A program made the translations under genes and the position numbers. A stretch of 64,000 nucleotides of DNA from Asanoa iriomotensis (GTDB lineage Bacteria > Actinomycetota > Actinomycetes > Mycobacteriales > Micromonosporaceae), in contig NZ_BONC01000003.1 in assembly GCF_016862515.1 (NCBI RefSeq), positions 186,001 through 250,000 on the forward strand, given 5' to 3'. The notes beneath the pieces were generated by a model that ran no database searches, was not told the origin of the DNA, and worked only from the letters and a program-made list of their open reading frames with translations. Positions 1,924 to 62,793 of the stretch are shown here, piece after piece; within the stretch, counting starts at the first letter, position 1, and every line of letters starts with the position of its first letter.

Positions 1924-1929
1924 TAAGGT
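1924..1929 (+). promoter_or_regulatory. -10 element, leaderless GlxA-type regulator
   Basis: TAAGGT lies 7 nt before the ATG at 1937, so the transcript would start at or beside the start codon. The spacer CAGGGAT could alternatively act as a weak Shine-Dalgarno site. Confidence 0.5.
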
Positions 1930-1936
1930 CAGGGAT

Positions 1937-2941
1937 ATGGATCCGCGGCACATCGTCATGGTCGGGTACGACGGCGCCGAACTGCTCGACATCGCCTGCG
2001 TAACCTCGACGTTCGGCCTGGCCAACACGATCGGCCAGCTGAGCCCCGGCTACCGAGTATCGCTGGCAACCCTCGGCGGCCGCCCGATCCGCTGCGACAG
2101 CGGCCTGGTGGTGGAAGCGCAGCTCACCCTGGAACGCCTGACAGGCCCGCTGGACACGGTGATCGTCTCGGGCGGCTTCGGCCACGAGAGGGCGGCCGAC
2201 AACGCACTGGTAGTCGCGCACGTCCGCCGGCTGGCCCGCGAGAGCCGCCGGATCGCGTCGGTATGCACGGGTGCGACGGTGCTCGCCGCGACCGGCCTGC
2301 TCGACGGCCGCCGCGCGACCACCCACTGGCGCTTCGCACCGCGGCTGGCCAGCCGCTACCACGACGTCCGCGTCGACTCGGCGCCCATCTTCATCCGCGA
2401 GGGCCGCGTAGCCACCGCCGCCGGCGTGACCAGCGCCCTGGACCTGACGCTCGCCTTCGTGGAGGAGGACCACGGCCCGGACCTGGCCCGCCAGGTCGCC
2501 CGGGACCTGGTCACATATCTGCAAAGACCGGGCAACCAGGCCCAGATGAGCGTGTACGTGGCGCCGCCCGCCCCCGACAACGACGTGGTCCGCCGCGCGG
2601 TCGACCACGTCCTCACCCACCTGGACGGCGACCTGTCCACGGCCCGCGTAGCGGACGCGGTCGGCGTGAGCCCCCGCCACCTGACCCGCTTGTTTCTACG
2701 CGAACTGGGCGACCCACCGGCCCGCTTCATCCGCTGCGCCCGAGTCGACGCGGCGGCCCGCCTGCTGGACTCGACCGACCTCCCGATGCCAGAGGTAGCC
2801 ACCCGCTCAGGCTTCGGCTCGGCCGAAGCGCTACGCCAAGCTTTCGTGGCCCGTTTCCGCATGCCACCGGCCAAATACCGCGCGGTCTCCCGCCGCCCAG
2901 CGCCCGAGACCCCCGAACCCGAAAGGGCAATGTCAGGCTAG
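1937..2941 (+). CDS. GlxA-family AraC-type transcriptional regulator
   Basis: A 334-residue DNA-binding regulator. Residues about 1-175 form a DJ-1/PfpI-like domain (IVMVGYDGAELLDIA; nucleophile-elbow region ASVCTGATVLAATGLLDG; THWRFAP), which in this family senses a ligand rather than acting as an enzyme. Residues about 215-320 contain two AraC helix-turn-helix motifs (LSTARVADAVGVSPRHLTRLF and MPEVATRSGFGSAEALRQAF) ending in FRMPPAKYRAV. The length is typical. The likely target is the divergent membrane protein or its own gene, but the sequence does not show the ligand. The ATG at 1937 fits both the start of the domain and the promoter geometry. Confidence 0.88.
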   Translation: MDPRHIVMVGYDGAELLDIACVTSTFGLANTIGQLSPGYRVSLATLGGRPIRCDSGLVVEAQLTLERLTGPLDTVIVSGGFGHERAADNALVVAHVRRLARESRRIASVCTGATVLAATGLLDGRRATTHWRFAPRLASRYHDVRVDSAPIFIREGRVATAAGVTSALDLTLAFVEEDHGPDLARQVARDLVTYLQRPGNQAQMSVYVAPPAPDNDVVRRAVDHVLTHLDGDLSTARVADAVGVSPRHLTRLFLRELGDPPARFIRCARVDAAARLLDSTDLPMPEVATRSGFGSAEALRQAFVARFRMPPAKYRAVSRRPAPETPEPERAMSG

Positions 2942-3082
2942 GGACCGACGAGGCTTCATGCTTCGGCCCGGCCGAGCCGCTGGGCTCGGCCGTCGTGGTG
3001 GGTTCCGCCTGCGATGGGGCAGGTTTCATGTGGTCTCCCCGCCGCGTGTCCTGGGCCCACTAACTGGATCGGCGATGCCGGG
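2942..3082. other. intergenic region with no recognisable gene
   Basis: The sequence downstream of the GlxA-type gene has no credible start codon, Shine-Dalgarno site or conserved frame. Short ORFs here have irregular codon use. Together with the fragment at 3083-3368 it makes a roughly 430-bp stretch without an intact gene. Confidence 0.5.
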
Positions 3083-3368
3083 TTAGAAGCCGAAGCGGAT
3101 CACAAGCTGGGTGGTCACGTCTTCGCCCTTCGGCTCGTGCGGGGTGTTGCCGCAGGCCTTCGCAGCTCGTGTCCGGATGCTGTGGAAGAAGCACGGTGCG
3201 GTTTCCGTTGCCTGGCCGCTGCGGGGTCCGCTGACCCAGGTCACCGAGAGGGCAACGTCTCTGGATGTGGTTCGCGGACGCAGCGCGGCACGCGCCGCAT
3301 GCCACCGGCCGAAATCAGGCGGGGTCTTCCGGCGCGCAATCGGTGGGCACGAGCCCAGCTCTGTCGAG
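3083..3368 (-). pseudogene. decayed 3' fragment of an unidentified gene
   Basis: On the minus strand one frame stays open from the end of the next hydrolase gene to a TAA at 3083-3085. It ends in a protein-like tail containing VALSVTWVSGP, APCFFHSIRTRAAKACGN and EDVTTQLVIRFGF. Most third codon positions are G or C, but fewer than in neighbouring genes. There is no start codon or ribosome binding site, and the frame would begin inside the neighbouring hydrolase. I read it as the surviving C-terminal end of a lost gene; the family is unknown. On the plus strand, RRMPPAEIRRGL at about 3293-3328 resembles the GlxA gene's C-terminus (FRMPPAKYRAV), but that may be chance. Confidence 0.35.
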
Positions 3369-4217
3369 TTAGGACGCGACCTGGGTCACAAACTTGGCGA
3401 CCACTTCCCGGAAACCCGCCGGGTCCTCGGCCCAGGGGATATGCCCGGCGCCAGCCAGAGTGACCCGCTTGACGTCGGGTAGCGACCGCTCCAACGAGTC
3501 GACCGCCCATCGCGGTCGGATGTCGTGTGCGCCATCCACGATGAGCGTGGGCGTGGTGAGCGCGCGGCAGAGCGCCGGCACGTCGTGATCCCGCAGGAAA
3601 CGACGCGACTCGGCGTTGATGGCCCGTGCGCAGGTGTAGTTGATCCCGAGCCACGGCGTTCCGAGTCGTTCGGCGTGGCCGCGGGCCGTGACCGGGTCGA
3701 CGAAGTCGGCCTGCCATTGGAGGATCGCGTGCTCGCGGTCCTCCTCGGGCGTCCGCTCACGCTCGTCCAGCTCGCGCCAACGCGCCGCGTCCGCTCCGAT
3801 GCCGTGTGTGAGGTTGCGATGAAAGGCATCACGCCAGGTCAGATCCGGGTCGACTCCGGTGCCGGAAACGTAGATCAGGCTGCCAACCCGGGAGGGGTGC
3901 GCCAACGCGTACCGCAACGCGAGCATGGCGCCCCACGAGTGCCCCAGCAGATTGACCCGCTCGGCGCCGAAGTGCCGACGCACGGCGTCCACATCGCCGA
4001 CGAACCGATCGACGGTGTACGGCCCGCGGCGCTCAGAACGCCCGCAACCCCGCTGATCCCAGCGAATGCTCCGAACGAAGCCGCCCAACAGCTCAGCGAC
4101 CCCGTCGAAGTAATCCCAGAGCCCCGGCCCACCATGACAGAGCAGAAGCGGCGGCCCATCACCGGCGACCGCGGTCCACAACCGGCAACCATCGTCAGCG
4201 AGAACATGCGCGCCCAT
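3369..4217 (-). CDS. alpha/beta hydrolase, proline iminopeptidase-like
   Basis: A 282-residue cytosolic serine hydrolase of the S33/proline-iminopeptidase-like group. The sequence shows the HGGPG oxyanion motif, the DQRGCGRS motif, the nucleophile elbow NLLGHSWGAM, an acidic residue in LIVDGAHDIRP and a C-terminal histidine in AGAGHIPWAED, so the catalytic triad is complete. Substrate cannot be read from sequence. The ATG at 4217 was chosen because TACCTT sits exactly 6 nt upstream on this strand, which fits a leaderless transcript. The longer frame back to 4397 would add a Pro/Arg-rich tract atypical of the family. The 237 bp before the next gene (4218-4454) contain nothing recognisable. Confidence 0.82.
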   Translation of the reverse strand: MGAHVLADDGCRLWTAVAGDGPPLLLCHGGPGLWDYFDGVAELLGGFVRSIRWDQRGCGRSERRGPYTVDRFVGDVDAVRRHFGAERVNLLGHSWGAMLALRYALAHPSRVGSLIYVSGTGVDPDLTWRDAFHRNLTHGIGADAARWRELDERERTPEEDREHAILQWQADFVDPVTARGHAERLGTPWLGINYTCARAINAESRRFLRDHDVPALCRALTTPTLIVDGAHDIRPRWAVDSLERSLPDVKRVTLAGAGHIPWAEDPAGFREVVAKFVTQVAS

Positions 4218-4223
4218 GATCGC

Positions 4224-4229
4224 AAGGTA
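4224..4229 (-). promoter_or_regulatory. -10 element, leaderless hydrolase gene
   Basis: TACCTT (minus strand) with 6 nt (GCGATC) before the ATG at 4217. There is no Shine-Dalgarno site. Confidence 0.5.
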
Positions 4230-5684: not shown

Positions 5685-6262
5685 GCCGGCTTGACGATGG
5701 GCTCGCCGACGAGCGTGACGCCCGCCTCGCGTAGTCGCTCGACCGCCGCCGCCGTGGTGTCGGGTAGGACGCCCGCGGTCAGGTCGAGCAGCACCGTCGT
5801 GTGGAAGCCCTCGCGGGCCGCGTCGAGGCTCGTCGCCTGGACGCAGTGGTCCGTGGTGAGGCCGACCACGTCGACCGCGTCGACGTCGTGGTCGCGCAGC
5901 CAGGTCGCCAGGCCGACGCCGTCGGCGGTGTGGCCCTCGAAGCCGCTGTAGGCGGCCGCGTGCTGGCCCTTGTGGAAGACGGCCTCGATGCGGCCGGTCT
6001 CCAGGTTGGGGTGGAAGTCGGAGCCCGGCGTGCCGACCACCGTGTGCGCGGGCCAGGTGGTGACGAAGTTGGGGCTGTCGCTGAAATGCGCGCCCGGGTC
6101 GATGTGGAAATCCTTGGTGGCCACCACGTGGTCCCACCGGTCGGGCGACCCGGACAGCGCACGGGAGATCTCCGTTGCCACGCCGGCGCCGCCGGCCACG
6201 GCCAGCGAGCCACCCTCGCAGAAGTCGTTCTGCGTGTCGACGATGATCAGTGCGCGGGTCAT
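5681..6262 (-). CDS. pncA: nicotinamidase (isochorismatase-family hydrolase)
   Basis: Hydrolyses nicotinamide to nicotinate plus ammonia in the NAD salvage (Preiss-Handler) route; cytosolic. The 193-residue length is normal. The catalytic triad is visible as D9 (IIVDTQNDFCEGG), K98 (VFHKGQ) and C140 (TTDHCVQAT). The metal site corresponds to D51/H53/H59 in TKDFHIDPGAHFS. It lies 10 nt downstream of pncB, whose product uses the nicotinate made here, which supports the assignment. The MFS gene follows with a 4-nt overlap. A TAGTGT hexamer 7 nt before the ATG overlaps the pncB stop and could give an extra leaderless transcript. Confidence 0.93.
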   Translation of the reverse strand: MTRALIIVDTQNDFCEGGSLAVAGGAGVATEISRALSGSPDRWDHVVATKDFHIDPGAHFSDSPNFVTTWPAHTVVGTPGSDFHPNLETGRIEAVFHKGQHAAAYSGFEGHTADGVGLATWLRDHDVDAVDVVGLTTDHCVQATSLDAAREGFHTTVLLDLTAGVLPDTTAAAVERLREAGVTLVGEPIVKPA

Positions 6263-6269
6263 GGGGTGA

Positions 6270-6275
6270 ACACTA
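6270..6275 (-). promoter_or_regulatory. possible internal -10 element for pncA
   Basis: TAGTGT (minus strand) ends 7 nt before the pncA ATG at 6262. Its first three bases are the pncB stop codon, so pncA may be transcribed both with pncB and on its own. Confidence 0.4.
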
Positions 6276-7559
6276 ACGCGCGGGTACGACAGTAACGGGG
6301 ATCGCCGGATCGCCCGCCGACAGCTTGAGGCCCTCCCACGGAATCGAGATCAATCCCTGCCGGAGGTGCTCCCGCGACTCGTCCAGCGACGGCAGAACAG
6401 CAGCCTCACCACCAACGAAGTACGGCCGCTGCAACAACCGGTCGCCCGTACGCGACTCGGGTGTGCCCTGCGACACCACGATCTCCTCGATCGCCGTGCC
6501 GGTCGGCTTGTGCCGCCGCACCGCCGTCTTCCGCCCGCCGATCGTCGCCTTGTGTTCCGACCGCTTGACCACCGACCGGCCGTCGACCTCGACCAGCTTG
6601 TAGACCAGGCCGGCGGTCGGCGCCCCCGACCCGGTGACGACCGAGGTGCCCGCGCCGTAGATGTCGACCGGCTCGGCGGCCAGCGCCGCGATCGAGAACT
6701 CGTCGAGGTCGCCCGACACGATGATCTTCGTCTCGGTGGCGCCCAGCGAGTCCAACAGCTCCCGCGAGTGCCCGGCCAGCACCGACAGGTCGCCCGAGTC
6801 GATCCGGATCGCGCGCAAGTCGGTGCCCGCCACCTTGATCGCGGTGCGGATGCCCTGCGCGATGTCATAGGTGTCGACGAGCAGCGTGGTGCTCTTGCCC
6901 AGTGCCGCGACCTGTGCGGCGAACGCGGCCGCCTCGTCGTCGTGCAGCAGTGTGAACGCGTGCGCCGCGGTGCCCGCGGTCGGGATCCCGTACCGCATGC
7001 CCGCCGCCAGGTTCGAGGTCGAGGAGAAGCCCGCGAGATAGGCCGCGCGCGTCGCGGCGACCGCCGCCTCCTCGTGCGCGCGCCGCGAGCCCATCTCGAT
7101 CAGCCCGCGCCCGCGCGCCGCGGTGACCATCCGCGCGGCCGCCGCGGCGATCGCGCTGTCATGGTTCAGGACGGACAGAATCAGGGTCTCCAGGAGTACG
7201 CACTCCACGAACGTCCCGGAGACCGTGAGGATCGGGGATCCGGGAAAGAACAGCTCGCCCTCGGCGTAGCCCTCGATGTCGCCGGTGAACCGGTAACCGG
7301 CCAGCCATTCCGCGGTCTGGTCGTCGACCACTCCCCGCGACAGCAGGTGGGCGATCTCCTCCTCGTCGAACCGGAACGAGCGGATCAGGTCCACCAGCCG
7401 GCCCGGCCCGCCCACCACGCCGTAACGACGACCCGGCGGCAACCGCCGCGCGAACACCTCGAACACGGACTGCCGGTCGGCCGTGCCGTCCTTGAGCGCG
7501 GCACTGACCATGGTCAGCTCGTAGTGGTCAGTCAGCAGAGCGGGGTGGCCCTTGGTCAT
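6273..7559 (-). CDS. pncB: nicotinate phosphoribosyltransferase
   Basis: Converts nicotinate, PRPP and ATP to nicotinate mononucleotide in NAD salvage. The 428-residue protein begins with the family signature ALLTDHYELTMVSAAL. It contains RRYGVVGGPGRLVDLI, the SRRAHEEAAVAATRAAYLAGFSSTSN segment, the histidine-containing GTAAHAFTLLHDDE, and the phosphoribosyl-binding RIDSGDL and SGDLDE motifs. Directly followed by pncA. TAGTCT lies 6 nt before the ATG at 7559 and there is no good Shine-Dalgarno site, so a leaderless transcript is likely. In M. tuberculosis pncB1 is likewise divergent from clpS; here two genes are inserted between them. Confidence 0.95.
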   Translation of the reverse strand: MTKGHPALLTDHYELTMVSAALKDGTADRQSVFEVFARRLPPGRRYGVVGGPGRLVDLIRSFRFDEEEIAHLLSRGVVDDQTAEWLAGYRFTGDIEGYAEGELFFPGSPILTVSGTFVECVLLETLILSVLNHDSAIAAAAARMVTAARGRGLIEMGSRRAHEEAAVAATRAAYLAGFSSTSNLAAGMRYGIPTAGTAAHAFTLLHDDEAAAFAAQVAALGKSTTLLVDTYDIAQGIRTAIKVAGTDLRAIRIDSGDLSVLAGHSRELLDSLGATETKIIVSGDLDEFSIAALAAEPVDIYGAGTSVVTGSGAPTAGLVYKLVEVDGRSVVKRSEHKATIGGRKTAVRRHKPTGTAIEEIVVSQGTPESRTGDRLLQRPYFVGGEAAVLPSLDESREHLRQGLISIPWEGLKLSAGDPAIPVTVVPAR

Positions 7560-7565
7560 CCCACC

Positions 7566-7571
7566 AGACTA
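7566..7571 (-). promoter_or_regulatory. -10 element, leaderless pncB
   Basis: TAGTCT (minus strand), then GGTGGG (6 nt), then ATG at 7559. It lies in the 25-bp gap after the LAL regulator. Confidence 0.55.
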
Positions 7572-7584: not shown

Positions 7585-10248
7585 TCAGCTGTCGGGAAGC
7601 ATGCGCAACGCGGCGCTCAGCTCCGCGCGGCCGGCGACGCCGAGCTTCGCGTACACCCGTTGCAGGTGGTTTTCGACCGTGCGGGTCGACAGGAAGAGCT
7701 CCGCGGCGATGTGCCGGCTGGGCACCCCGTTGGCGGCCAGCTTGGCGACCTGCCGCTCCCGGTCGGTAAGCGCCGGCCGGGACAGGCCGAGCGCCGGCGT
7801 GCGCAGCATGTCGCATTTACTCAACAGGTCGTTCATCAGCGCCTTGGCGTTGCCCGCCGCCTCGGTCGCCCGGGTCTCCCGGAAGCGGCCCGCGGCCGCT
7901 GCGGCCGCCTCGGCGGCGTACACCCAGAGGCCCTTGACCTTGAACAGGTCGGCGGCGATCAGCAGGTCAGGGCCGGAGCGCTGGGCCGCCGCCGTGGCGT
8001 GCGCCGCCATGATGCCCGGCAGGTCGCCCTCGAGCGTCGGCGCCAGCGCGGCGAGGCGCTGGGCGACCGTCTGCGCCGGGTCGTGCTCCTCGGGCCAGCC
8101 GATCGGCTCGGCCGCCCGGCCCAGCCGGACCAGGTCGTGCAGGGCCAGCACCTCGTGGCCGGCGAAGCCGTCGCCGCGCAGCCGCCAGACCAGGCGGCGG
8201 AGCACCTCGACCGCGCCCGGCAGGTCGTCGGCGACCGCGAGGACCGCGGCCCGGGCCTGCTCGCGCCACGGGTAGACGATCGACATGATCGGCGACTGCG
8301 ACTCGTCGGAGTCGGCCATCGCGTCGCGGGCCTCGTCGACCTCGCCGCGCAGCGCGTGCGCCTGTGCCCGCTCGGCGTGGGCCAGCCCCGCGTAGATCCG
8401 GCTGGTCGCCAGCGCCGCGCAGGCCTGCACGCTGGTGCGCAGCGCCTCGCCGGTCTGGCCGCGGAGCCGGGCCGCCTGCGCACGCAGCACCGAGAGATAG
8501 CCGGAGCCGAGCCGGAAGTCGCCGGCGTCGGCCAGGTCGGCGAACTCGTCGGCGACGATCGCGTCGATGCCGGTCAGGTCGCCGGCGATGGCCAGCCGGG
8601 TGCCCCGGGCCAGCTCCAGCGCGAGCTGAAGATAAGGCATGTCGGTGCGCCACAGTGGCGCGTCGGCCTGCACGCTGGCCACGGCCCGCTCGCTCGCCCG
8701 CGACTCGCCCTGTGCCGCCTGGAGGTGGGCGATCATGCACAGCGCCAGGCCGCGGGCGGAGACCGGGGCGGCCGGGCGGTCGAGGATCGAGCGGGCGATC
8801 CGCAGCGCCTCGGCGGACTCCAGCTTGTGCAGCCGCATGATCGCCTCGAACGAGCGGACCCGCGCCTGGTCGGCCGGGTCCGACAGCGCCTTGGCCTCGA
8901 CGGCCAGCTCGTCGGGAGTCGCCTCGCGGCTGAGGCCCCAGTAGGAGACCAGGCCGCGGACGACCAGCCAGCGGGCCCGCAGCGACTGCGAGGTGGCCTG
9001 CTCGCCGACCGCGTCGAGCACGGCCAGCGCCTCGGAGGGCTGGTCGCTGAACATCATCATCGTGGACAGCAGCTCGGCGGCGCCGAACCCGCCGCCGGCG
9101 TCGAGCGCTGCCCGGGCCAGCCGGGTGGCCAGCGGCACGTCGAAGCCCGCGAACGCCTGCGCGCCGGCCATCAGCAGCTGCATCGGGTCCTGTGCGGTGC
9201 CCGAGTCGAGGCGCCACACCGCGACCCGGAGGAGGTCGTCGCGGCGCCGGGCGCCGACCGCCTCGACCAGGTCGGCGAGCTGGGCCTCGAGCCGCCGCTG
9301 GCGCACCACCGGGCACCGGCGGCGGACCACCTCGCCGTAGAGCGGGTGGGCGAGCCGCACGTTGGAGCGCCGGTCGCTGGTCACCACGCGGATGAGCTGG
9401 CGCTCCTCGGCGGTCTCGACGTCGACCGGGTTGGTCGCCTTGATCAGCAGGTCGATGCCGATCGGCTCGCCGAGCGAGGCCAGCTCCACGACCGTGCGTA
9501 CGCCCGGCGTCAACTGCCCGATCCGGGCGTCGATCAGGTCGAACAGGCTGGGTGCCAGCTCGAGCCGGCCCGTCCACCGGTGGACGCCGAACTGCTTGGT
9601 GAACTCGCCTGCCTGCCGGGCCGCCATCACCAGCTCGCGCAGCAGCAGCGCGTTGCCCTCGGACAGCTTCCACAGCCGCTCGGCGCTGGCCTGGTCGACG
9701 TCGCCCTCCAGCATCTGCACCAGCAGCCGGCTCACGTCGTCGACCGACATCGGCTCGAGCTCGACCAGCTCCACGAAGTCGTCGGTCCACAGTGCCCGGA
9801 TCGGGTGCGGGAACTGCTCGCCGCTGCGCAGCGTGCCGAGCACGGTGGCGCCCTCGTCGCGGGCCATGAGGTAGACCAGTGCCGAGGACGACGGGTCGAG
9901 CAGGTGCGCGTCGTCGATCGCGAGCACGATCGGCCGGCCGGCGGCCTGCTGGTTGAGCGCCTCGACGGCCCAGCGCAGCAGGCCGGCCGCGGTCAGGCCG
10001 GGCGGTTGGTCGGTGGGCAGCACCTGGGCGAGCCCACCGAACGGCAGGGAGGCGGTCGCGGCGTTGGCGGAGGCGGTCCAGACCGCCAGCCGCTCGGTCG
10101 GCAGCGCGGCGACGCCTTCACGCAGCAGGCGGCTCTTGCCGATGCCCGCACTGCCGCTAAATATGAGCCCTCTTCCGCTTCCGCCCGAGGCGGTCGAGAT
10201 GAGACGGTTGAGTTCGGCGGCACGCCCGACAAATCTCCACGGACTCAT
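7585..10248 (-). CDS. LAL-type LuxR transcriptional regulator with ATPase domain
   Basis: An 887-residue large ATP-binding LuxR-family regulator. The N-terminal AAA-like domain has Walker A SGSAGIGKSRLL (K38, S39) and Walker B IVLAIDDAHLLD (D112, D113). The middle 500 residues are helical, Ala/Leu/Arg-rich TPR-like repeats. The C-terminal 65 residues are a LuxR helix-turn-helix (LTDRERQVAKLAANGVPSRHIAAELFLSTRTVENHLQRVY). Such proteins activate transcription after ligand or ATP-dependent oligomerisation; the inducer is unknown. The start at 10248 is supported by TATGCT 6 nt upstream; the longer frame adds an unrelated 58-residue leader. It is divergent from the dynamin-like gene, its most obvious candidate target. 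Confidence 0.9.
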   Translation of the reverse strand: MSPWRFVGRAAELNRLISTASGGSGRGLIFSGSAGIGKSRLLREGVAALPTERLAVWTASANAATASLPFGGLAQVLPTDQPPGLTAAGLLRWAVEALNQQAAGRPIVLAIDDAHLLDPSSSALVYLMARDEGATVLGTLRSGEQFPHPIRALWTDDFVELVELEPMSVDDVSRLLVQMLEGDVDQASAERLWKLSEGNALLLRELVMAARQAGEFTKQFGVHRWTGRLELAPSLFDLIDARIGQLTPGVRTVVELASLGEPIGIDLLIKATNPVDVETAEERQLIRVVTSDRRSNVRLAHPLYGEVVRRRCPVVRQRRLEAQLADLVEAVGARRRDDLLRVAVWRLDSGTAQDPMQLLMAGAQAFAGFDVPLATRLARAALDAGGGFGAAELLSTMMMFSDQPSEALAVLDAVGEQATSQSLRARWLVVRGLVSYWGLSREATPDELAVEAKALSDPADQARVRSFEAIMRLHKLESAEALRIARSILDRPAAPVSARGLALCMIAHLQAAQGESRASERAVASVQADAPLWRTDMPYLQLALELARGTRLAIAGDLTGIDAIVADEFADLADAGDFRLGSGYLSVLRAQAARLRGQTGEALRTSVQACAALATSRIYAGLAHAERAQAHALRGEVDEARDAMADSDESQSPIMSIVYPWREQARAAVLAVADDLPGAVEVLRRLVWRLRGDGFAGHEVLALHDLVRLGRAAEPIGWPEEHDPAQTVAQRLAALAPTLEGDLPGIMAAHATAAAQRSGPDLLIAADLFKVKGLWVYAAEAAAAAAGRFRETRATEAAGNAKALMNDLLSKCDMLRTPALGLSRPALTDRERQVAKLAANGVPSRHIAAELFLSTRTVENHLQRVYAKLGVAGRAELSAALRMLPDS

Positions 10249-10254
10249 CAGCGC

Positions 10255-10260
10255 AGCATA
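10255..10260 (-). promoter_or_regulatory. -10 element, leaderless LAL regulator gene
   Basis: TATGCT (minus strand) plus GCGCTG (6 nt) precede the ATG at 10248. Confidence 0.5.
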
Positions 10261-12081: not shown

Positions 12082-12087
12082 TACGAT
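12082..12087 (+). promoter_or_regulatory. -10 element, leaderless clpS
   Basis: TACGAT, then 6 nt (GGCGGG), then GTG at 12094. It decides the clpS start, because a start at 12031 would place this promoter inside the gene. Confidence 0.6.
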
Positions 12088-12093
12088 GGCGGG

Positions 12094-12384
12094 GTGGCAG
12101 CCCCGCAGACGACCCCCGTGCAGGTGCCGGACGTCGAGACGGTGCCGGCGACCGACCGTCCCTGGATCACGATCGTCCACGACGACCCGGTCAACCTGAT
12201 GACCTATGTGACGTGGGTTTTCCAGAAGCAGTTCGGCTACAGCCACGACAAGGCCCAGTCCCTGATGCTCGATGTGCACAACAAAGGCCGCGCCGCCGTC
12301 TCCTCCGGCGCCCGCGAGCGGATGGAATACGACGCTTCGTGTCTCCACGGCTACGGCCTCTGGGCGACGGTCGAGCAACCCTGA
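12094..12384 (+). CDS. clpS: ATP-dependent Clp protease adaptor ClpS
   Basis: Adaptor that binds the ClpC/ClpA N-domain and delivers N-degron substrates to ClpP. The 96-residue form starting at GTG 12094 matches the usual actinobacterial length. The core motif [28 protein letters not shown] contains the conserved substrate-pocket residues (DDPVN, MTYV). It continues with [34 protein letters not shown]. It is followed 3 nt later by the DUF2017 gene, as in M. tuberculosis Rv1331-Rv1332. The longer frame from ATG 12031 adds an unconserved leader that contains the promoter. Confidence 0.93.
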
Positions 12385-12926: not shown

Positions 12927-12932
12927 TAGGCT
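12927..12932 (+). promoter_or_regulatory. -10 element, leaderless mec
   Basis: TAGGCT, then TGGACC (6 nt), then GTG at 12939. No Shine-Dalgarno site is present. Confidence 0.6.
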
Positions 12933-12938
12933 TGGACC

Positions 12939-13430
12939 GTGCTGAGCATCGACCGGTCGATCATCGACGCGATCATCGCCCACGCACGCCGCGATCATCC
13001 CGACGAGGCGTGCGGCGTGGTCGCGGGCCCGGTCGGCAGCGACACCCCGGTGCGCCACATCCCGATGGACAACGCGGCCCGGTCGATGACCTTCTACGAG
13101 TTCGACTCGATGGAGCAGTTGCGCGTCTGGCGCGAGATGGACGACCGTGACGAAGAGCCGTTGGTCATCTACCACTCGCACACCGCGACCGAGGCCTACC
13201 CGTCACGCACCGACACCGATCTCGCCGGCGTGCCCGAGGCGCACTACATGCTGGTCTCGACCCGCGAGCCGGACACCGAGGAGATCAGGTCATACCGCAT
13301 CGTGGACGGCGTCGTAACCGAAGAGCCGGTTCAGATCGTTGACCCCACCGTGGACCCGCACGCCGTTCAGTCATACATGTTCGGGCAGAGCCCGACGACG
13401 GTCGACTACGAGTGTTCGCCAGGCCGCTGA
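12939..13430 (+). CDS. mec: JAMM/MPN+ metallopeptidase (Mec, CysO-cysteine peptidase)
   Basis: Zinc metallopeptidase that in M. tuberculosis releases cysteine from the CysO-cysteine adduct in the alternative cysteine pathway. The 163-residue protein has the full JAMM signature: E23 (HPDEACG) and H79-S-H81-x7-S89-x2-D92 (YHSHTATEAYPSRTD). It lies directly upstream of cysO and cysM, the same order as Rv1334-Rv1336. The GTG start is fixed by the TAGGCT hexamer. The neighbouring CysO has residues after its diglycine, so here the enzyme may also process the carrier protein itself (see the finding on CysO). Confidence 0.92.
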   Translation: MLSIDRSIIDAIIAHARRDHPDEACGVVAGPVGSDTPVRHIPMDNAARSMTFYEFDSMEQLRVWREMDDRDEEPLVIYHSHTATEAYPSRTDTDLAGVPEAHYMLVSTREPDTEEIRSYRIVDGVVTEEPVQIVDPTVDPHAVQSYMFGQSPTTVDYECSPGR

Positions 13431-16623: not shown

Positions 16624-16629
16624 TAGGCT
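16624..16629 (+). promoter_or_regulatory. -10 element of the leaderless uORF/phosphodiesterase transcript
   Basis: TAGGCT, then GCGCAGC (7 nt), then GTG at 16637. The same hexamer precedes mec and rph. Confidence 0.5.
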
Positions 16630-16636
16630 GCGCAGC

Positions 16637-16723
16637 GTGACAATCTCGTCGACCACGATCTTGTGCCTCCGAACGGTCGGCGGGCCTGTCAACCACATGC
16701 CGGGAACGTCCGGATGCGTCTGA
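16637..16723 (+). CDS. 28-codon leaderless uORF overlapping the phosphodiesterase start
   Basis: GTG at 16637 lies 7 nt after TAGGCT. The frame runs 28 codons (begins VTISSTTILCLRTVGG, ends MPGTSGCV) to TGA at 16721-16723. Its end overlaps the ATG of the next gene (16714) by 10 nt in a different frame. The main gene has no good Shine-Dalgarno site, so translation may be coupled to, or gated by, this small ORF. The peptide has two cysteines and no recognised function. Expression is not shown by the sequence. Confidence 0.4.
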   Translation: MTISSTTILCLRTVGGPVNHMPGTSGCV

Positions 16724-19843: not shown

Positions 19844-19846
19844 GCT
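19841..19846 (+). promoter_or_regulatory. -10 element, leaderless rph
   Basis: TAGGCT, then GGCCCCC (7 nt), then ATG at 19854. The hexamer overlaps the TAG stop of the preceding glycosyltransferase gene. Confidence 0.55.
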
Positions 19847-19853
19847 GGCCCCC

Positions 19854-21631: not shown

Positions 21632-21637
21632 TAGCAT
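21632..21637 (+). promoter_or_regulatory. -10 element, leaderless AraC-family gene
   Basis: TAGCAT, then GGTTCG (6 nt), then ATG at 21644. Confidence 0.5.
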
Positions 21638-21643
21638 GGTTCG

Positions 21644-35640: not shown

Positions 35641-35646
35641 CGCCAC

Positions 35647-38053: not shown

Positions 38054-38060
38054 GTGACGG

Positions 38061-45026: not shown

Positions 45027-45032
45027 TACACT
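45027..45032 (+). promoter_or_regulatory. -10 element, leaderless sensor kinase gene
   Basis: TACACT immediately follows the terminator stem; TGCTCCC (7 nt) and GTG at 45040 follow. The upstream terminator hairpin occupies the -35 region. Confidence 0.55.
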
Positions 45033-45039
45033 TGCTCCC

Positions 45040-46329
45040 GTGACCGCGTCCCCCGACCTCGACCAGTGGCGCCGCCCGGGCCCGACCCCCGAGCAGCGCC
45101 GCGTCGACGTGCTGATCGGCGTGGCGGTCACCGCCCTGACGCTGCTCAACATGACGCTCGCCACGTCCGCCGGCGCCCTCGTGTTCGGGCGCGTGCCGGC
45201 TCTGCCCGAGCAGATTTTCTGGACCGTGCTGATCGCACTCCCGCTGTGCTGGCGGCGGCGCTTTCCCGAGGCGGTCGCGATCGTCGTTTCTGCGGCGTTC
45301 ATCGGCGGCCAGATCCGGGCAGCCCCCGAGCAGCAGCTGACCGCCTGGGTGCTCTTCGCCGCCATCTACGCGCTGGGCGCCTGGGGCCGTGACCGTCGCC
45401 GCGCCAAATGGATCCGCGTCGGCATCATCGCGGCGATGTTCCTGTGGCTCTTCACCAGCCTGGCCATCGGGCTGATCCGCGGCCCGCTGCCGGAGTTCTC
45501 CAACACCTCCGGGTTCCTGCCGCCGCTGCTGGCGGTGATCGTCAACAGCCTGCTGGTCAACGTGCTGCTCTTCGGCGCCGCCTACTTCTTCGGCGAGACC
45601 GCCTGGACGGCGGCGCGCCGCGAGCACCAGCTCGAGCTGCAGGCCGAGGAGCTGCGCGCGTCCCAGGCCGAGGCGCGGGAGCTGGCGGTCGCCGACGAGC
45701 GACTACGGATCGCCCGCGAGCTGCACGACGTGGTCGCCCACCACGTGTCGGTGATGGGCGTGCAGGCGTCGGCCGGCCGCCGGGTCCTCGACAAGGACCC
45801 GGCCAAGGCCCGCGCCGCGCTGGAGTCGGTCGAGCTGAGCGCCCGCACGGCGGTCGACGAGCTGCGTCGCATGCTGAGCCTGCTGCGGCAGTCGGGCGAC
45901 GCGGTCGAGGTGGCGGGCGGCGGCGTCGACCGGTTGGACGACCTGCTGGCCAACGCCCGCGAGGCCGGGTTGGAGACGAAGCTCGGTGTCTACGGCGACC
46001 CGGTGGAGCTGCCGGAGTCGCTGTCCCAGGCGATCTACCGGATCGTCCAGGAGGCGCTGACCAACACCATCAAGCACGCCAGCGCGACCACGGTCGACCT
46101 CCGGATCCGTTATCTGGCCAACGAAGTGGAGATCGACGTGACCGACGACGGCCGCTCGGTGCTGGCTGGCCAGCGCACGGGCGGCATGGGCCTGATCGGC
46201 ATGCGCGAGCGCGTCACGGCCCACGACGGCGTCCTCGAAACCGGCCCGGCCAACGACGGCGGCCCGAGCCGCCGCGGCTTCCGCGTCCGCGCCCGGTTCC
46301 CGCTGGCCCGAGTGGCGGTCGACGCATGA
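45040..46329 (+). CDS. two-component sensor histidine kinase (NarL/DesK type)
   Basis: A 429-residue membrane kinase. About six membrane segments occupy residues 24-190 with no large extracellular domain. A coiled coil (EHQLELQAEELRASQAEAREL) leads to the HisKA_3 box with phosphoacceptor H229 (RIARELHDVVAHHVSVMGVQ). The C-terminal HATPase has EALTNTIKHASA (N box), DDGRSVLAGQRTGGMGLIGMRERV (G boxes). It phosphorylates the response regulator, whose ATG overlaps its stop. The signal is probably a membrane perturbation or lipophilic compound, by analogy. GTG 45040 follows TACACT by 7 nt. Confidence 0.92.
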   Translation: MTASPDLDQWRRPGPTPEQRRVDVLIGVAVTALTLLNMTLATSAGALVFGRVPALPEQIFWTVLIALPLCWRRRFPEAVAIVVSAAFIGGQIRAAPEQQLTAWVLFAAIYALGAWGRDRRRAKWIRVGIIAAMFLWLFTSLAIGLIRGPLPEFSNTSGFLPPLLAVIVNSLLVNVLLFGAAYFFGETAWTAARREHQLELQAEELRASQAEARELAVADERLRIARELHDVVAHHVSVMGVQASAGRRVLDKDPAKARAALESVELSARTAVDELRRMLSLLRQSGDAVEVAGGGVDRLDDLLANAREAGLETKLGVYGDPVELPESLSQAIYRIVQEALTNTIKHASATTVDLRIRYLANEVEIDVTDDGRSVLAGQRTGGMGLIGMRERVTAHDGVLETGPANDGGPSRRGFRVRARFPLARVAVDA

Positions 46330-47738: not shown

Positions 47739-47744
47739 TAGCCT
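47739..47744 (+). promoter_or_regulatory. -10 element, leaderless ABC exporter ATPase gene
   Basis: TAGCCT, then TGTAGGC (7 nt), then ATG at 47752. No Shine-Dalgarno site is present. Confidence 0.5.
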
Positions 47745-47751
47745 TGTAGGC

Positions 47752-48645
47752 ATGACGAAGGTGCTTCATCTCGAAGCGATCAACCGAAGCTTCGGCGACC
47801 GCCAAGTCCTCCGGGACGTGACGTTCGACGTGACCGCCGGCCGGATGACGGGGTTCGTCGGCGCCAACGGCGCCGGCAAGACGACCAGCATGCGGATCAT
47901 CCTGGGTGTGCTCGCCCCCGACTCGGGCGAGGTCACCTGGCAGGGCAACCGGCTGACCCGCGAGGACCGGCGCCGGTTCGGCTACATGCCGGAAGAGCGC
48001 GGGCTCTACCCGAAGATGACCGTACGCGACCAGCTCGTCTACCTCGGTCGCCTGCACGGCCTCACGGTCCAGGCCGTCAACCGCAACGTCGACGACCTGC
48101 TGGAGTGGCTCAGCCTCGGCGAGCGGGCCAACGACCCCGTCGAGAACCTCTCGCTCGGCAACCAGCAGCGCGCCCAGATCGCGGCGGCGCTCGTGCACGA
48201 CCCCGACGTGCTCGTACTGGACGAGCCGTTCTCCGGGCTCGACCCCATGGCCGTCGACACCGTCGTCAGCGTGCTGCGCGAGCGGACCCACCGCGGCGTT
48301 CCGGTGCTCTTCTCCAGCCACCAGCTCGACGTGGTCGAGCGGCTCTGCGACGACCTGGTCATCATCGCCGGCGGCGCCATCAAGGCCGCGGGGAGCAAGG
48401 ACAGCTTGCGCGACTCGTACGCACAGCGGCGGTTCGCCCTGGTCGTGGCCGGCGATGCCGGCTGGGTGCGCGACCAGCCCGGTGTGACACTGGTCGACCT
48501 CGACGGCCCGCGCGCCGTGTTCGACCTCGCCGACGGCGCCGACGACCAGGTGGTGCTCCGCGCGGCCCTGGAGCGCGGCGCGGTGCGGTCGTTCGGTCCC
48601 GTCACGCCTTCGCTCGCCGAGATCTTCCGAGAGGTTGCCCGATGA
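47752..48645 (+). CDS. ABC transporter ATP-binding protein (NatA-like)
   Basis: A 297-residue ATPase of an ABC-2 exporter. Walker A GFVGANGAGKTTSMR, Q-loop region GYMPEERGLYP, signature NLSLGNQQRAQIAAAL, Walker B VLVLDEPFSGLDPMAVD and switch His SSHQLDVVERL are intact. The C-terminal extension (about 225-297) is typical of NatA-type proteins. It pairs with the coupled permease gene. Substrate (Na+, drug or peptide) is not deducible. The preceding two-component operon is a candidate regulator. Confidence 0.93.
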   Translation: MTKVLHLEAINRSFGDRQVLRDVTFDVTAGRMTGFVGANGAGKTTSMRIILGVLAPDSGEVTWQGNRLTREDRRRFGYMPEERGLYPKMTVRDQLVYLGRLHGLTVQAVNRNVDDLLEWLSLGERANDPVENLSLGNQQRAQIAAALVHDPDVLVLDEPFSGLDPMAVDTVVSVLRERTHRGVPVLFSSHQLDVVERLCDDLVIIAGGAIKAAGSKDSLRDSYAQRRFALVVAGDAGWVRDQPGVTLVDLDGPRAVFDLADGADDQVVLRAALERGAVRSFGPVTPSLAEIFREVAR

Positions 48646-55353: not shown

Positions 55354-55359
55354 TACCCT
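55354..55359 (+). promoter_or_regulatory. -10 element, leaderless HhH-domain gene
   Basis: TACCCT, then GATCGC (6 nt), then GTG at 55366. Confidence 0.55.
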
Positions 55360-55365
55360 GATCGC

Positions 55366-55578
55366 GTGAGTACCCGCGACGTGCCGGAGCGGATCGGCGA
55401 CCTGCCGCCGATCGGGCGGCCGGCCAACAGCGCCCTGCTCGAGGCCGGCATCACCACGCTCGACCAGGTGGCCGCCTGTCGCCGGCGCGACCTGCTGGCC
55501 ATGCACGGCGTCGGCCCCAAGGCGGTCCGCATCCTCGCCGCCGCCCTGGCCGACCGCGGCCAGGCGTTCGCCGACTGA
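55366..55578 (+). CDS. small helix-hairpin-helix DNA-binding domain protein
   Basis: A 70-residue protein consisting of one helix-hairpin-helix domain: IGDLPPIGRPANSALLEAGITTLDQVAACRRRDLLAMHGVGPKAVRILAAALADRG. The two hairpins (LPPIGRPA, MHGVGPKA) are of the type that bind DNA backbone. Such stand-alone HhH proteins are frequent in actinobacteria and of unknown role. The GTG at 55366 is set by the leaderless hexamer; starting at 55339 would place that hexamer inside the gene. Confidence 0.8.
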   Translation: MSTRDVPERIGDLPPIGRPANSALLEAGITTLDQVAACRRRDLLAMHGVGPKAVRILAAALADRGQAFAD

Positions 55579-57383: not shown

Positions 57384-57793
57384 CAGATGTTGATCCCGAA
57401 CCGGTCGAAGACCGGGTATTCGGTGCCCGCCGTGAACACCGCCTCGCCCGGGGTCAGGAACGTCTTGCGGTACGAGCCCACGACCCGCCCGTCGCTGACC
57501 ACGACCGCGGTGTTGTAAAACGCGCCCGAAGCCCGCTCGATGATGCCGAACACCAGCGTCTGCCTGATCGCCGCCAGCGAGCCCAGCACCGACGTGAGCC
57601 CGGCCGACCCGATCTCCAGCGCGTGCCGCCGCACATGCTCGTCGGAGACGAGATACCCCTGCAGGAAGCACTCCGGAAACAGCAGCAGCTCAGCCCCGGC
57701 GGCGTCGGCCTGACGGGCGAAGTCCCGCACGACGCCCACGGCCGCGGCCACATCGCCGAGGATCTCTGGCGTTTGACAGGCCCCGACCCGCAC
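56999..57793 (-). CDS. carbon-nitrogen hydrolase (nitrilase superfamily)
   Basis: A 264-residue amidase-type enzyme. The Glu-Lys-Cys triad is in LLLFPECFLQG (E41), SYRKTFLTPGE (K110) and INICYDTQFPE (C137). VRVGACQTPEILGD is the typical N-terminus. The last 22 residues (RPATRPPGRFLSR onward) are Arg-rich, antisense to the damaged ATPase gene, and unlike the family. Substrate (amide or nitrile) is unknown. GTG 57793 is preceded by TATCCT with a 7-nt spacer, overlapping the -10 of the divergent gene. Confidence 0.87.
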   Translation of the reverse strand: MRVGACQTPEILGDVAAAVGVVRDFARQADAAGAELLLFPECFLQGYLVSDEHVRRHALEIGSAGLTSVLGSLAAIRQTLVFGIIERASGAFYNTAVVVSDGRVVGSYRKTFLTPGEAVFTAGTEYPVFDRFGINICYDTQFPEAAAAVAAGGAQVLLVPAQNMMRREKALWWQDRHNEIRSRRARETGMWLVSADVTGSRDPSRVGLGPTCVMNPAGEVVTQVPAGEIGMVSVEIAATARPATRPPGRFLSRTTVRSGRCRNR

Positions 57794-57817
57794 AGCGGAA
57801 AGGATACATTGGCTTAC
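57794..57817. promoter_or_regulatory. 24-bp bidirectional leaderless promoter
   Basis: Only 24 bp separate GTG 57793 (minus) and ATG 57818 (plus). TATCCT (minus strand, 57806-57801) and TACATT (plus strand, 57805-57810) are each 7 nt from their start codons and share the self-complementary TA at 57805-57806. The two -10 elements therefore overlap on opposite strands. Confidence 0.6.
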
Positions 57818-58240
57818 ATGGATGATCCGGTGCCGTGCCACTTCTGTGCCGAAAACGCCGGTGCACCAGAGCATTGGCGGCGGGTCGAACTCTTCCGGCG
57901 CGACGGCAGCGGCTTGTCCACAAAGGAAGTCGCGGTGCCGAGGTGCCGGAAATGCCGCCGCCGCCACCGGTTGGTCGGCGTCGCGGCCGTCCTGGTCTAC
58001 CTCGCGCTGCTGGCCACGGCCGCCAGCAAGGCCGGCCGCGCGCTCGCCGACGCGGCGATTCCATCCGACGCCACCCTCGGGCTCGTCATCGGTGTCGGCG
58101 CCGTGCTCATCCTCGGAGCCTTGGCGTCAACCCTGCTGGTCGACGTCTGGAAATGGCTGCTGCTGCGGCGTCACCCCGTCGTCGCCGAGCATTGGCGCCG
58201 CGGCTGGACGATCCATTGGCAGCGACGGGCGGAAGGCTGA
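57818..58240 (+). CDS. membrane protein with N-terminal zinc-ribbon-like cysteines
   Basis: A 140-residue protein. Four cysteines in two CxxC pairs (PCHFCAEN at residues 7-10 and RCRKCRRR near 42-45) suggest a zinc-binding head. Two membrane helices follow: LVGVAAVLVYLALLATAASKAG and LGLVIGVGAVLILGALASTLLVDVW, and the end is basic and Trp-rich (HWRRGWTIHWQRRAEG). Function unknown. Its ATG has TACATT 7 nt upstream. It is divergent, back to back, with the nitrilase-family gene and stops 5 bp before the convergent beta-lactamase-fold gene. Confidence 0.7.
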   Translation: MDDPVPCHFCAENAGAPEHWRRVELFRRDGSGLSTKEVAVPRCRKCRRRHRLVGVAAVLVYLALLATAASKAGRALADAAIPSDATLGLVIGVGAVLILGALASTLLVDVWKWLLLRRHPVVAEHWRRGWTIHWQRRAEG

Positions 58241-59310: not shown

Positions 59311-59316
59311 TATCGT
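59311..59316 (+). promoter_or_regulatory. -10 element, leaderless nucleoside hydrolase gene
   Basis: TATCGT, then CGAGCGA (7 nt), then ATG at 59324. It rules out the GTG at 59300 as start. Confidence 0.5.
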
Positions 59317-59323
59317 CGAGCGA

Positions 59324-60325
59324 ATGAGGGAGTACGCCGCTCAGCCGGTGATCGTCGACTGCGACCCCGGGCACGACGACGCGCTGGCGCTGCTGCTGGC
59401 CGTCGGCGACCCCCGGCTGCGACTGCTCGGCGTCACGACCGTCGCGGGCAACCAGACGCTCGACAAGACGACGCGGAACGCGCTGAAGATGCTCGCCCTG
59501 GCCGGCGTCACCGACGTGCCGGTCGCCGCCGGCTGCGACCGGCCGTTGGTCGGCGACCTGAGCGTCGCCGAATACATCCACGGCGCGTCGGGGCTCGACG
59601 GGCCCGACCTCGATCTGCCGGTCGCAGAGGTCGCCGACGTGCACGCGGTCGAGTTGATGCGCCGCGAGATCATGGGTTCGACCGAGCCGGTCACCCTGGT
59701 CGCGCTCGGGCCGCTGACCAATGTCGCGCTGCTGCTGCGCCGGCATCCCGAGGTCGCGCCGCGCCTACACCGGATCGTCTTCATGGGTGGTTCGACCGAT
59801 CGAGGCAACACGACGCCTTACGGCGAGTTCAACATCGTCACCGACCCCGAGGCCGCCGACATCGTGCTGCGGTCGGGGCTGCCGACCACGATGATCGGAC
59901 TCAACGTCACCCACCAGGCCCTCGCGACCGCGGAGGTCATCGCCGAGTTCCGCGGCCTGGGCACCCGGCTGGGCGCGGTCTGCGCGGAGCTGATGACGTT
60001 CTTCGCGAGCACCTACCTGCGGGAGTTCGGGCTCGCGGATCCGCCGGTGCACGACCCGATCGCGGTGGCCGCGGTCATCGACGCGGCGATCGTCCGGACG
60101 GTCGCGGCCCCGGTCGTTGTCGAGTTGACGGGTACGCACACCCGCGGTGCCACCGTCGTCGACCTGCATGGCCGGACCGGGCGGGCACCGAACGTGGACG
60201 TCGCGGTCGGGCTGGACGTGGACGCGTTCTGGCGCCTGCTCATGGCCGCGGTGCGACGACTGGGTGCGGCAGAAACGCATGGTCCTGCCAGATCAGACGG
60301 GACATCTCTTCCGGGTACGGGGTGA
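59324..60325 (+). CDS. inosine-uridine-type nucleoside hydrolase
   Basis: A 333-residue enzyme that splits nucleosides into ribose and base. The Ca2+/substrate motif PVIVDCDPGHDDALALLLA (D12, D14, D18, D19) is intact, followed by LGVTTVAGNQTLDKTTRNAL, IHGASGLDGPDL, LVALGPLTNVAL, GEFNIVTDPEAADIVLRSGL and VHDPIAVAAVID. The final 20 residues (ETHGPARSDGTSLPGTG) lie antisense to the end of the convergent esterase gene and look like read-through. ATG 59324 is preferred because of the TATCGT hexamer. Confidence 0.93.
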   Translation: MREYAAQPVIVDCDPGHDDALALLLAVGDPRLRLLGVTTVAGNQTLDKTTRNALKMLALAGVTDVPVAAGCDRPLVGDLSVAEYIHGASGLDGPDLDLPVAEVADVHAVELMRREIMGSTEPVTLVALGPLTNVALLLRRHPEVAPRLHRIVFMGGSTDRGNTTPYGEFNIVTDPEAADIVLRSGLPTTMIGLNVTHQALATAEVIAEFRGLGTRLGAVCAELMTFFASTYLREFGLADPPVHDPIAVAAVIDAAIVRTVAAPVVVELTGTHTRGATVVDLHGRTGRAPNVDVAVGLDVDAFWRLLMAAVRRLGAAETHGPARSDGTSLPGTG

Positions 60326-62243: not shown

Positions 62244-62334
62244 CTGACGACCCTCCACCCACCGTCCAATGCCGGATCAGCGTCGGCCGATGGCCGTGTG
62301 TCACCGGATCGGGGAGCAACAAACCCCCATGGGG

Positions 62335-62340
62335 TATCGT
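62335..62340 (+). promoter_or_regulatory. -10 element, leaderless DUF6153-like gene
   Basis: TATCGT, then GGCGCC (6 nt), then GTG at 62347. Confidence 0.5.
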
Positions 62341-62346
62341 GGCGCC

Positions 62347-62793
62347 GTGCGTCGAACGGGCAGGCAGACGACCGCGCGGAGCATCGGGCGCCTCGCGCAG
62401 CAGCTCCTCATGATCTGCACCGTCCTGGGCCTGGCGCTGATGCACAGCCTGGGCCACACCGACCTGCACCACTCCCGGGCCGCCGGAGCCTCGGCGAACG
62501 GCCATGCGGCTGAGATCTCGTCGTCGGCGGCCATCGCGGACGGTGACTGCGCCGATTGTGATCGCGCCTCAACCCCAACCGGGCCCGGCCGTCACGGTGG
62601 GTCCTTCTGGGAGATCTGCCTCGCGGTGCTGAGCGGCGTCGCCGCGGCCCTGCTGCTCACCGCCCTGCTCGTGATCTCGACTCGCGCCCACGGTTGGGCG
62701 CGCCCGGCCTTTTCCGCTCCGTCGCTGTCTCGCGGGCCACCGGTGCGACGCACGGGGTTGAAGCTGGCCACGGTTTCGGTGCTGCGCGTATAG
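62347..62793 (+). CDS. membrane protein, DUF6153-like
   Basis: A 148-residue protein with two membrane helices: IGRLAQQLLMICTVLGLALMHSLGHT and FWEICLAVLSGVAAALLLTALLVISTRAH. Between them lies an extracytoplasmic His/Cys-containing loop (HTDLHHSRAAGA, GDCADCDRAS) that could bind metal. Proteins of this layout often accompany DUF305 lipoproteins in actinobacteria, as here. The name DUF6153 is from recall and unconfirmed. GTG 62347 is chosen from the TATCGT hexamer; ATG 62269 would give a longer unconserved leader. Confidence 0.6.
   Translation: MRRTGRQTTARSIGRLAQQLLMICTVLGLALMHSLGHTDLHHSRAAGASANGHAAEISSSAAIADGDCADCDRASTPTGPGRHGGSFWEICLAVLSGVAAALLLTALLVISTRAHGWARPAFSAPSLSRGPPVRRTGLKLATVSVLRV

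Follow-up and report, generated by a model that had tools for sequence, protein, structure and literature searches.

How does translation begin at a set of genes in a 64,000-nucleotide (nt) stretch of the Asanoa iriomotensis genome, where the hexamer TANNNT stands 6 or 7 nt ahead of ATG or GTG at each of the 20 positions listed by a first-pass annotation? This stretch, hereafter the window, is C3:186001-250000 of a genome of 8.57 Mb in 187 contigs (family Micromonosporaceae), and its nicotinate phosphoribosyltransferase (NAPRTase) is 91-92% identical to that of Asanoa siamensis, A. hainanensis and A. ishikariensis. We conclude that TANNNT is very probably the -10 element of a promoter read by the housekeeping sigma factor, which we take to be HrdB/SigA, with transcription starting on the first base of the start codon. 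The hexamer would occupy about -12 to -7, with the A or G of ATG/GTG as +1, and the mRNA would carry neither a 5' untranslated region nor a Shine-Dalgarno site, so that the ribosome would recognise the 5'-terminal start codon. From sequence features we infer both the sigma factor and where the 5' end actually lies; the features observed are a fixed spacing of 6-8 nt, an excess over chance, a scarcity of Shine-Dalgarno motifs, a dependence on gene context and conservation across relatives. Such a fusion of promoter with start codon would allow the -10 element to lie within a neighbouring gene. Where tandem genes stand 9-11 nt apart, the upstream TAG or TAA stop codon would in many cases provide the TA of the -10, and in some divergent pairs 17-22 nt apart one -10 would serve both genes, either as TANNNTA or through a shared TA. 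Leaderless TANNNT genes are already known, and these two compact layouts go beyond the original observation.

Genes were called with a purpose-written program based on third-position-GC seeds and a three-periodic Markov model, which is blind to upstream sequence and places starts by coding score and start-codon frequency only. The main set comprised contigs C1-C6 (1.52 Mb, 1,381 genes), and the held-out set the first 100 kb of each of contigs C7-C14 (0.8 Mb, 695 genes), to which the coding model was applied in frozen form. With these blind starts, TANNNT was found at spacers of 6, 7 and 8 nt in 74, 64 and 16 genes of the main set, as compared to 0-7 genes at any of the remaining spacers between 0 and 34. 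The held-out set gave 32, 30 and 5 genes at the same spacers and 0-6 elsewhere. Thus, the offset count that the first-pass annotation had proposed as a check of its pattern displayed a sharp peak and was repeated in held-out DNA; the flat genome-wide profile that it had named as counter-evidence was not what we observed.

Starts were then re-selected, allowing a shift of at most 6 nats, and the same procedure was run at control offsets. The hexamer was placed at spacer 6-8 in 265 of the 1,381 genes, as compared to 20-44 genes at control offsets (eight triples), and in 116 of the 695 held-out genes, as compared to 7-19 (seven triples). The excess over control offsets corresponds to approximately 16% of the genes in the sampled genome. 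In the window, 15 of the 64 called genes carry the signature, one of them with a doubtful TTG start at 24270. The earlier estimate that roughly a quarter of the genes here may be leaderless agrees with the window, but the share in the sampled genome is lower.

The peak was also present in relatives. At the best 80 of 156 NAPRTase loci from other genera, TANNNT was found at spacers 6, 7 and 8 in 80, 42 and 13 of 831 genes, with a background of 1.8, and 52, 33 and 6 (776 genes) were left after removal of 55 NAPRTase starts that a motif had identified. A further 146 loci gave 50, 28 and 6 (571 genes), counts that are inflated since many of these loci were fetched by the TANNNT pattern itself or by RNase PH. 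Restricted to the 46 loci retrieved with other proteins, the counts were 7, 15 and 3 (175 genes, background 0.9).

Single genes could also be followed across species. Of 80 actinomycete loci, which range from the Micromonosporaceae to the Geodermatophilaceae and Corynebacterium, 77 have TANNNT at spacer 6-8 before NAPRTase. RNase PH shows the signature in all 29 loci that could be read; of 60 genomes with a match, the 30 matching best were used, host included, and a contig edge cuts one of these loci. The counts accept any in-frame start lying between -75 and +36 nt of the expected position for NAPRTase and between -45 and +9 nt for RNase PH, ranges permissive enough to raise chance matches somewhat.

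The leaderless reading of the first-pass annotation drew further support from the context of the genes. Shine-Dalgarno 4-mers preceded 10 of the 265 leaderless candidates, as compared to 441 of the 1,116 other genes (25 and 144, respectively, in a control region), a deficit that is partly mechanical because the candidates were selected for TANNNT in that very stretch. The start codons of the candidates were 145 ATG, 117 GTG and 3 TTG; TTG was used by 39 of the 1,116 other genes. The signature was rare in genes that overlap the preceding tandem gene (8 of 247; 0 of 126 in the held-out set) and frequent in divergent genes (17 of 33 at gaps of 0-50 nt, held-out 10 of 18; 70 of 153 at gaps of 0-100 nt). 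The trinucleotide TGn preceded 29 of 96 CANNNT hexamers at spacers 6-8, 17 of 381 TANNNT hexamers and 25 of 437 in a control region. We read the TGn-CANNNT class as a putative extended -10 that would offset the missing first T. Among the C1-C6 non-leaderless genes, GANNNT was over-represented at a single spacer, 6 nt (41 cases, as compared to a mean of 11.9), and may be a -10 variant or a Shine-Dalgarno sequence.

Besides the mechanical part of the Shine-Dalgarno deficit and the permissive start ranges, several results weigh against the leaderless reading. No -35 consensus was found in the 265 candidates: matches of at least 4/6 to TTGACA occurred in 13 of them at spacer 17 and 12 at spacer 18, as compared to 0-13 at the other spacers from 8 to 29. 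Mycobacterial promoters are likewise described as having no -35 consensus in the accessible text of PMC3898074. Strict TANNNT was present before ClpS in only 23 of 78 loci, and isochorismatase was leaderless-like in only 7 of 77. At ClpS, TGGCANNAT followed by 6-8 nt and ATG was found in 52 of the 78 loci, that is, an apparent CANNNT extended -10 in place of TANNNT. Isochorismatase starts in Geodermatophilaceae (L195, L196, L198, L199, L201, L203) have GGCAGGATG just upstream, a CANNNT-like box. The comparison of gene calls with Pfam covered the 19 listed genes only, and of the listed sites one (16637) fails and another (57818) is doubtful.

A different account of the same hexamer is that it is a -10 element whose transcript starts a few bases to either side, with a very short leader, or that processing after transcription trims the mRNA back to the start codon. 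The spacer does range from 6 to 8 and the 5' ends are predicted ones. However, spacings of 5 and 9 are at background, which fits a choice of start site on the A or G of the start codon, and in the same family 1,179 transcription start sites (TSSs) have been mapped that are leaderless in the sense of lying at most 3 nt from the start codon (accessible text of PMC7682106). We regard this account as very improbable.

The 20 positions in the window all show TANNNT, 6 or 7 nt and ATG/GTG, as the first-pass annotation had claimed. They are given here with the predicted -10 hexamer, the spacer and the start codon:

1924..1939, + strand: DJ-1/PfpI-AraC regulator; TAAGGT (1924-1929), 7 nt, ATG 1937; exact independent start call, predicted leaderless
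4215..4229, - strand: alpha/beta hydrolase; TACCTT (4229-4224), 6 nt, ATG 4217; predicted leaderless, start re-annotated
6260..6275, - strand: isochorismatase-family gene; the NAPRTase stop TAG (6275-6273) opens TAGTGT (6275-6270), 7 nt, ATG 6262
7557..7571, - strand: NAPRTase; TAGTCT, 6 nt, ATG 7559
10246..10260, - strand: LuxR-type AAA regulator; TATGCT, 6 nt, ATG 10248
12082..12096, + strand: ClpS; TACGAT, 6 nt, GTG 12094
12927..12941, + strand: JAB-domain protein; TAGGCT, 6 nt, GTG 12939
16624..16639, + strand: 28-codon open reading frame (ORF), background and outside the set; TAGGCT, 7 nt, GTG 16637
19841..19856, + strand: RNase PH; the stop TAG (19841-19843) of ORF 18680-19843 opens TAGGCT (19841-19846), 7 nt, ATG 19854
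21632..21646, + strand: cupin/AraC regulator; TAGCAT, 6 nt, ATG 21644
32930..32944, - strand: RpiR-type regulator; TACGCT, 6 nt, GTG 32932
35638..35652, - strand: DUF1905 protein; TATGGT, 6 nt, ATG 35640
38051..38066, - strand: YbaB/EbfC-like protein; TACGCT, 7 nt, GTG 38053
45027..45042, + strand: sensor histidine kinase; TACACT, 7 nt, GTG 45040
47739..47754, + strand: ABC transporter ATPase; TAGCCT, 7 nt, ATG 47752
55354..55368, + strand: 70-aa protein with a weak helix-hairpin-helix match below the Pfam cut-off; TACCCT, 6 nt, GTG 55366
57791..57806, - strand: carbon-nitrogen hydrolase; TATCCT (57806-57801), 7 nt, GTG 57793; TA at 57805-57806 common with the 57818 site
57805..57820, + strand: 140-codon ORF, gene doubtful; TACATT (57805-57810), 7 nt, ATG 57818
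59311..59326, + strand: inosine-uridine nucleoside hydrolase; TATCGT, 7 nt, ATG 59324
62335..62349, + strand: DUF6153 protein; TATCGT, 6 nt, GTG 62347

The upstream-blind caller picked eight of these starts exactly (1937, 6262, 7559, 10248, 12094, 12939, 21644, 45040), and six more cost no more than 6 nats relative to the best start (32932, 35640, 38053, 47752, 55366, 57793). Another three fall inside a called ORF with a larger loss, namely 19854 (7.0), 4217 (11.6) and 57818 (13.7), and three (16637, 59324, 62347) lie outside any called gene. Pfam boundaries back four of these six weaker starts. At 4217 the abhydrolase domain begins at residue 22, and the caller's start at 3992 would truncate it; at 19854 position 1 of the RNase PH profile falls at residue 11; the products of 59324 and 62347 were identified as a nucleoside hydrolase and DUF6153. 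At intergenic RTG triplets other than in-frame candidate starts of called genes, spacers 6 and 7 after TANNNT were found 17 and 20 times, as compared to a mean of about 19 at the other spacers from 0 to 30, and even so a few probable genes missed by the caller (59324, 62347) are counted in. Site 16637 is therefore background, and the idea suggested by it, that leaderless small ORFs stand upstream of genes, was rejected. The 57818 ORF had no Pfam match and no counterpart in the single close Asanoa locus compared (L318). Thus, 18 of the 20 positions are good gene starts, one is doubtful (57818) and one is wrong (16637).

These counts bear on whether the pattern could be a product of chance or of selective reading, with random TANNNT hexamers and a fitting start codon chosen by the reader. 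One background site, one doubtful site and the fact that starts were chosen partly by the motif would fit such an account. It has next to no probability, as the peak appears with upstream-blind starts, in held-out DNA and in relatives, there is none at RTG outside called genes, and the offset profile refutes chance.

Start-codon re-annotation, also proposed in the first pass, held for 4217 and 19854 and failed for 16637. Its mention of toxin genes found no counterpart: none of the 19 scanned listed genes (all but 16637) has a toxin family as best Pfam match. A further match of the 47752 product is AAA_21, a family in whose description 'putative AbiEii toxin' occurs, but an ABC-transporter ATPase ranks first for this product. 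From 10248 to 5681 the LuxR regulator, NAPRTase and isochorismatase genes are consecutive on the same strand, each with its own leaderless signature, at gaps of 25 and 10 nt.

Two of the listed sites lie on stop codons: the NAPRTase stop leads into 6262, and the stop of ORF 18680-19843 into RNase PH at 19854. Among 179 tandem leaderless genes of the sampled genome, 34 have a TANNNT whose TA is also that of the preceding stop codon (27 TAG, 7 TAA), as compared to at most five cases for any other alignment offset tabulated. RNase PH 19854 is not among the 34, the caller having placed that start further in. Since the alignment could be an effect of start selection, the count was repeated with blind starts. 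At gaps of 9-11 nt, a T five bases after the first base of the stop codon (stop+5) was found in 23 of 31 TAG/TAA-stopped pairs, as compared to 2 of 20 TGA-stopped pairs; at other gaps, TAG/TAA-stopped pairs had it in 23 of 100 cases when at most 60 nt apart and in 17 of 195 when further apart. TAG/TAA stops were themselves enriched at gaps of 9-11 nt (31 of 51, as compared to 56 of 188 at gaps of 3-8 and 12-30 nt). The held-out part alone gave 7 of 12 versus 0 of 8. At the 80 loci of other actinomycetes the figures were 15 of 21 versus 0 of 7, but these include several orthologs, and the 15 are not independent because all 80 NAPRTase loci are orthologs of one region. A third data set, with 2 of 3 versus 0 of 1, is too small to contribute much. 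Scaled from 2.32 Mb, the 34 cases suggest roughly 125 fusion junctions in the genome.

The same layout might be produced by a Shine-Dalgarno-like AGG following the stop codon, or by a spacing suited to re-initiation, with no promoter involved. At the NAPRTase/isochorismatase junction many relatives do have a stop codon that overlaps a Shine-Dalgarno site (TGAGGAGG) or TAGGGG. Adjacent copies of the two genes were found in 61 loci, of which 4 are fused (three Asanoa, L124, L150 and L187, and one Spirilliplanes, L148, with the same stop/-10 layout as the window), 36 have a Shine-Dalgarno 4-mer and 21 neither; in several of these 21, GGG comes after TAG with the gap unchanged, a single base away from TANNNT. 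However, AGG is absent from 24 of the 34 fused hexamers, and a Shine-Dalgarno 4-mer lies at -18 to -4 in no more than 2 of them. Moreover, neither model needs the decisive T at stop+5, which was rare in TGA-stopped pairs at the same gaps. Such an origin is unlikely.

A passive origin is harder to set aside. A -10 beginning with TAG or TAA is a stop codon in one frame, and a drifting upstream ORF could simply end there; we give this account somewhat less than an even chance. At RNase PH the -10 is kept in all 29 readable loci, whereas a long upstream frame of coding character ends on it in 6 of them, so that the promoter was probably there first. The same sequence of events is suggested for the -10 of NAPRTase itself, where an upstream ORF would have come to end on the promoter later. 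In Actinoplanes-type genera (L125, L126, L128-L130, L155), a gene of 861-904 codons ends exactly on the NAPRTase -10 at a gap of 9 nt; in Asanoa, the preceding gene (the LuxR regulator 10248) stops 25 nt ahead of NAPRTase. Against a purely passive origin, 34 upstream ORFs end exactly on the -10 and 12 run past it, as compared to the 1:2 predicted for a random frame (p ~2e-8), although selection against gene overlap or the caller's overlap limit could contribute to this excess. In addition, the counts from the 61 adjacent NAPRTase/isochorismatase copies suggest the opposite order, as the promoter at this junction looks derived in Asanoa, on an older TAG stop. We therefore propose, tentatively and at slightly lower confidence than the passive account, that the fusion is a recurrent and partly selected unit in which a single TAG or TAA would end one gene and nucleate promoter melting for the next, some instances having been born on pre-existing stops by one base change at stop+5.

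In divergent orientation, overlapping hexamers were found in 3 of 245 pairs in C1-C6 (17, 19 and 22 nt apart), and a fourth pair (17 nt) has one near-match. A 17-bp region with a proposed shared -10 lies at C6:183107-183124, between a glutamine-synthetase-like gene and an amidohydrolase gene. Against a shared -10 stands the held-out DNA, in which none of 120 divergent pairs had two overlapping strict hexamers; one C12 pair, 19 nt apart, has one strict and one CANNNT hexamer. In the 17-nt and 19-nt cases the shared hexamer is kept in both congeners compared. The pattern CAY-N5-TANNNTA-N5-RTG matched 98 of 150 Micromonosporaceae genomes, as compared to 42 for a control with N8 flanks. A reversed-pattern control argues against it, as it matched 104 (N5) and 105 (N8) of the 150 genomes, with neither pattern in excess over it. 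The site counts were 166 versus 237 reversed for N5 and 46 (counted by hand) versus 206 for N8, so that relative to the reversed control the N5 form is three times closer than N8. In the host genome alone the palindromic pattern gave 2 sites and the reversed control 3, again no excess. The reversed pattern has different dinucleotides, and the case therefore rests on the comparison of N5 with N8 and on an ORF test.

In this test, ORFs of at least 100 codons were found on both sides in 13 of 39 examined N5 sites (8 ortholog groups), as compared to 2 of 30 N8 sites, one of which has non-coding third-position GC; some of the positive N5 sites also have weak third-position GC (L267, L270). The 39 sites are a non-random sample of one locus per genome from 19 genomes, one extra host site and 20 hand-picked stretches; the table has 40 rows because the host site L079 is repeated as L258. 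From the geometry, the two TSSs would lie 18, 20 or 23 bp apart, in agreement with bidirectional promoters, for which a spacing of 18 bp is reported as most common and 10 and 23 bp as also common (accessible text of PMC12825309 and PMC10268837).

A general coupling of leaderless starts in divergent pairs was rejected, as both genes were leaderless in 21 of 245 pairs, equal to the expectation under independence (21.5), and in 4 of 120 held-out pairs. The pair 57793/57818 was likewise rejected as a proven divergon, the plus-strand ORF lacking both a Pfam match and a counterpart in the congener locus compared. A search of five congeners gave a single close copy of the carbon-nitrogen hydrolase 57793 (L318, G101), which has an in-frame TAG, and the gene therefore looks patchy in the genus. 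The 19-nt region (L011:1-240, L094-L099) lies between an MFS transporter and a regulator, presumably of the CGNR type, and overlaps GTTACGG/CCGTTAC repeats that occur near the start in some relatives too; these are possibly the regulator's operator on the shared -10.

The grammar itself agrees with published accounts, here compared through their accessible text. The TA-led genes of Zheng et al. 2011 (PMC3160421), with TANNNT about 10-12 bp before the start, are common in Actinobacteria and were read as leaderless, as here; the words 'stop codon', 'bidirectional' and 'divergent' are absent from that main text, which treats neither compact layout. In Mycobacterium tuberculosis, about a quarter of the genes are leaderless with TANNNT and no -35 (Cortes et al. 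2013, PMC3898074; Shell et al. 2015, PMC4633059), and in mycobacteria an ATG or GTG at the 5' end is reported as necessary and sufficient. The same two papers mention divergent promoters in close juxtaposition and a single divergent pair whose mRNAs are both leaderless, but a -10 common to two leaderless genes was not found in their accessible text. The term 'stop codon' is absent from that of Cortes et al., and the stop-codon passages in that of Shell et al. concern coupling and small ORFs, not a -10 on a stop.

In Actinoplanes sp. SE50/110, of the same family, the mapped leaderless TSSs correspond to 14.03% of coding sequences, with a -10 of TAnnnT (PMC7682106). Those sites were mapped experimentally, whereas the Asanoa starts are predicted, and neither 'stop codon' nor 'bidirectional' appears in that main text. 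The bidirectional promoters of PMC10268837 and PMC12825309 have one symmetric -10 read both ways, with TSSs 18 bp apart, and the shared -10 proposed here is alike in this respect; 'leaderless' is absent from their accessible text, whereas here both start codons are the predicted TSSs and the intergenic region spans 17-22 bp. Neither the stop/-10 fusion nor leaderless divergons with a shared -10 were found described in the literature searched, which is weak evidence of novelty as most subscription papers fell outside the search.

For Asanoa and its kin, the leaderless grammar would provide an RNA-free rule for setting start codons. The fusion would break the common assumption that closely spaced genes on the same strand form one operon: roughly one in five tandem leaderless genes has its predicted -10 on the stop codon of the preceding gene, and, if this is true, a pair 9-11 nt apart that resembles a coupled operon has an independent leaderless promoter. 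Divergons with a shared -10 would rank among the smallest possible two-way gene control regions (17 bp). As TAG or TAA already gives the TA, and the -10 then needs just one T, five bases on from where the stop codon begins, the fusion would offer a simple route to promoter birth. If confirmed, the promoter of the next gene partly sets the choice of stop codon in these genomes.

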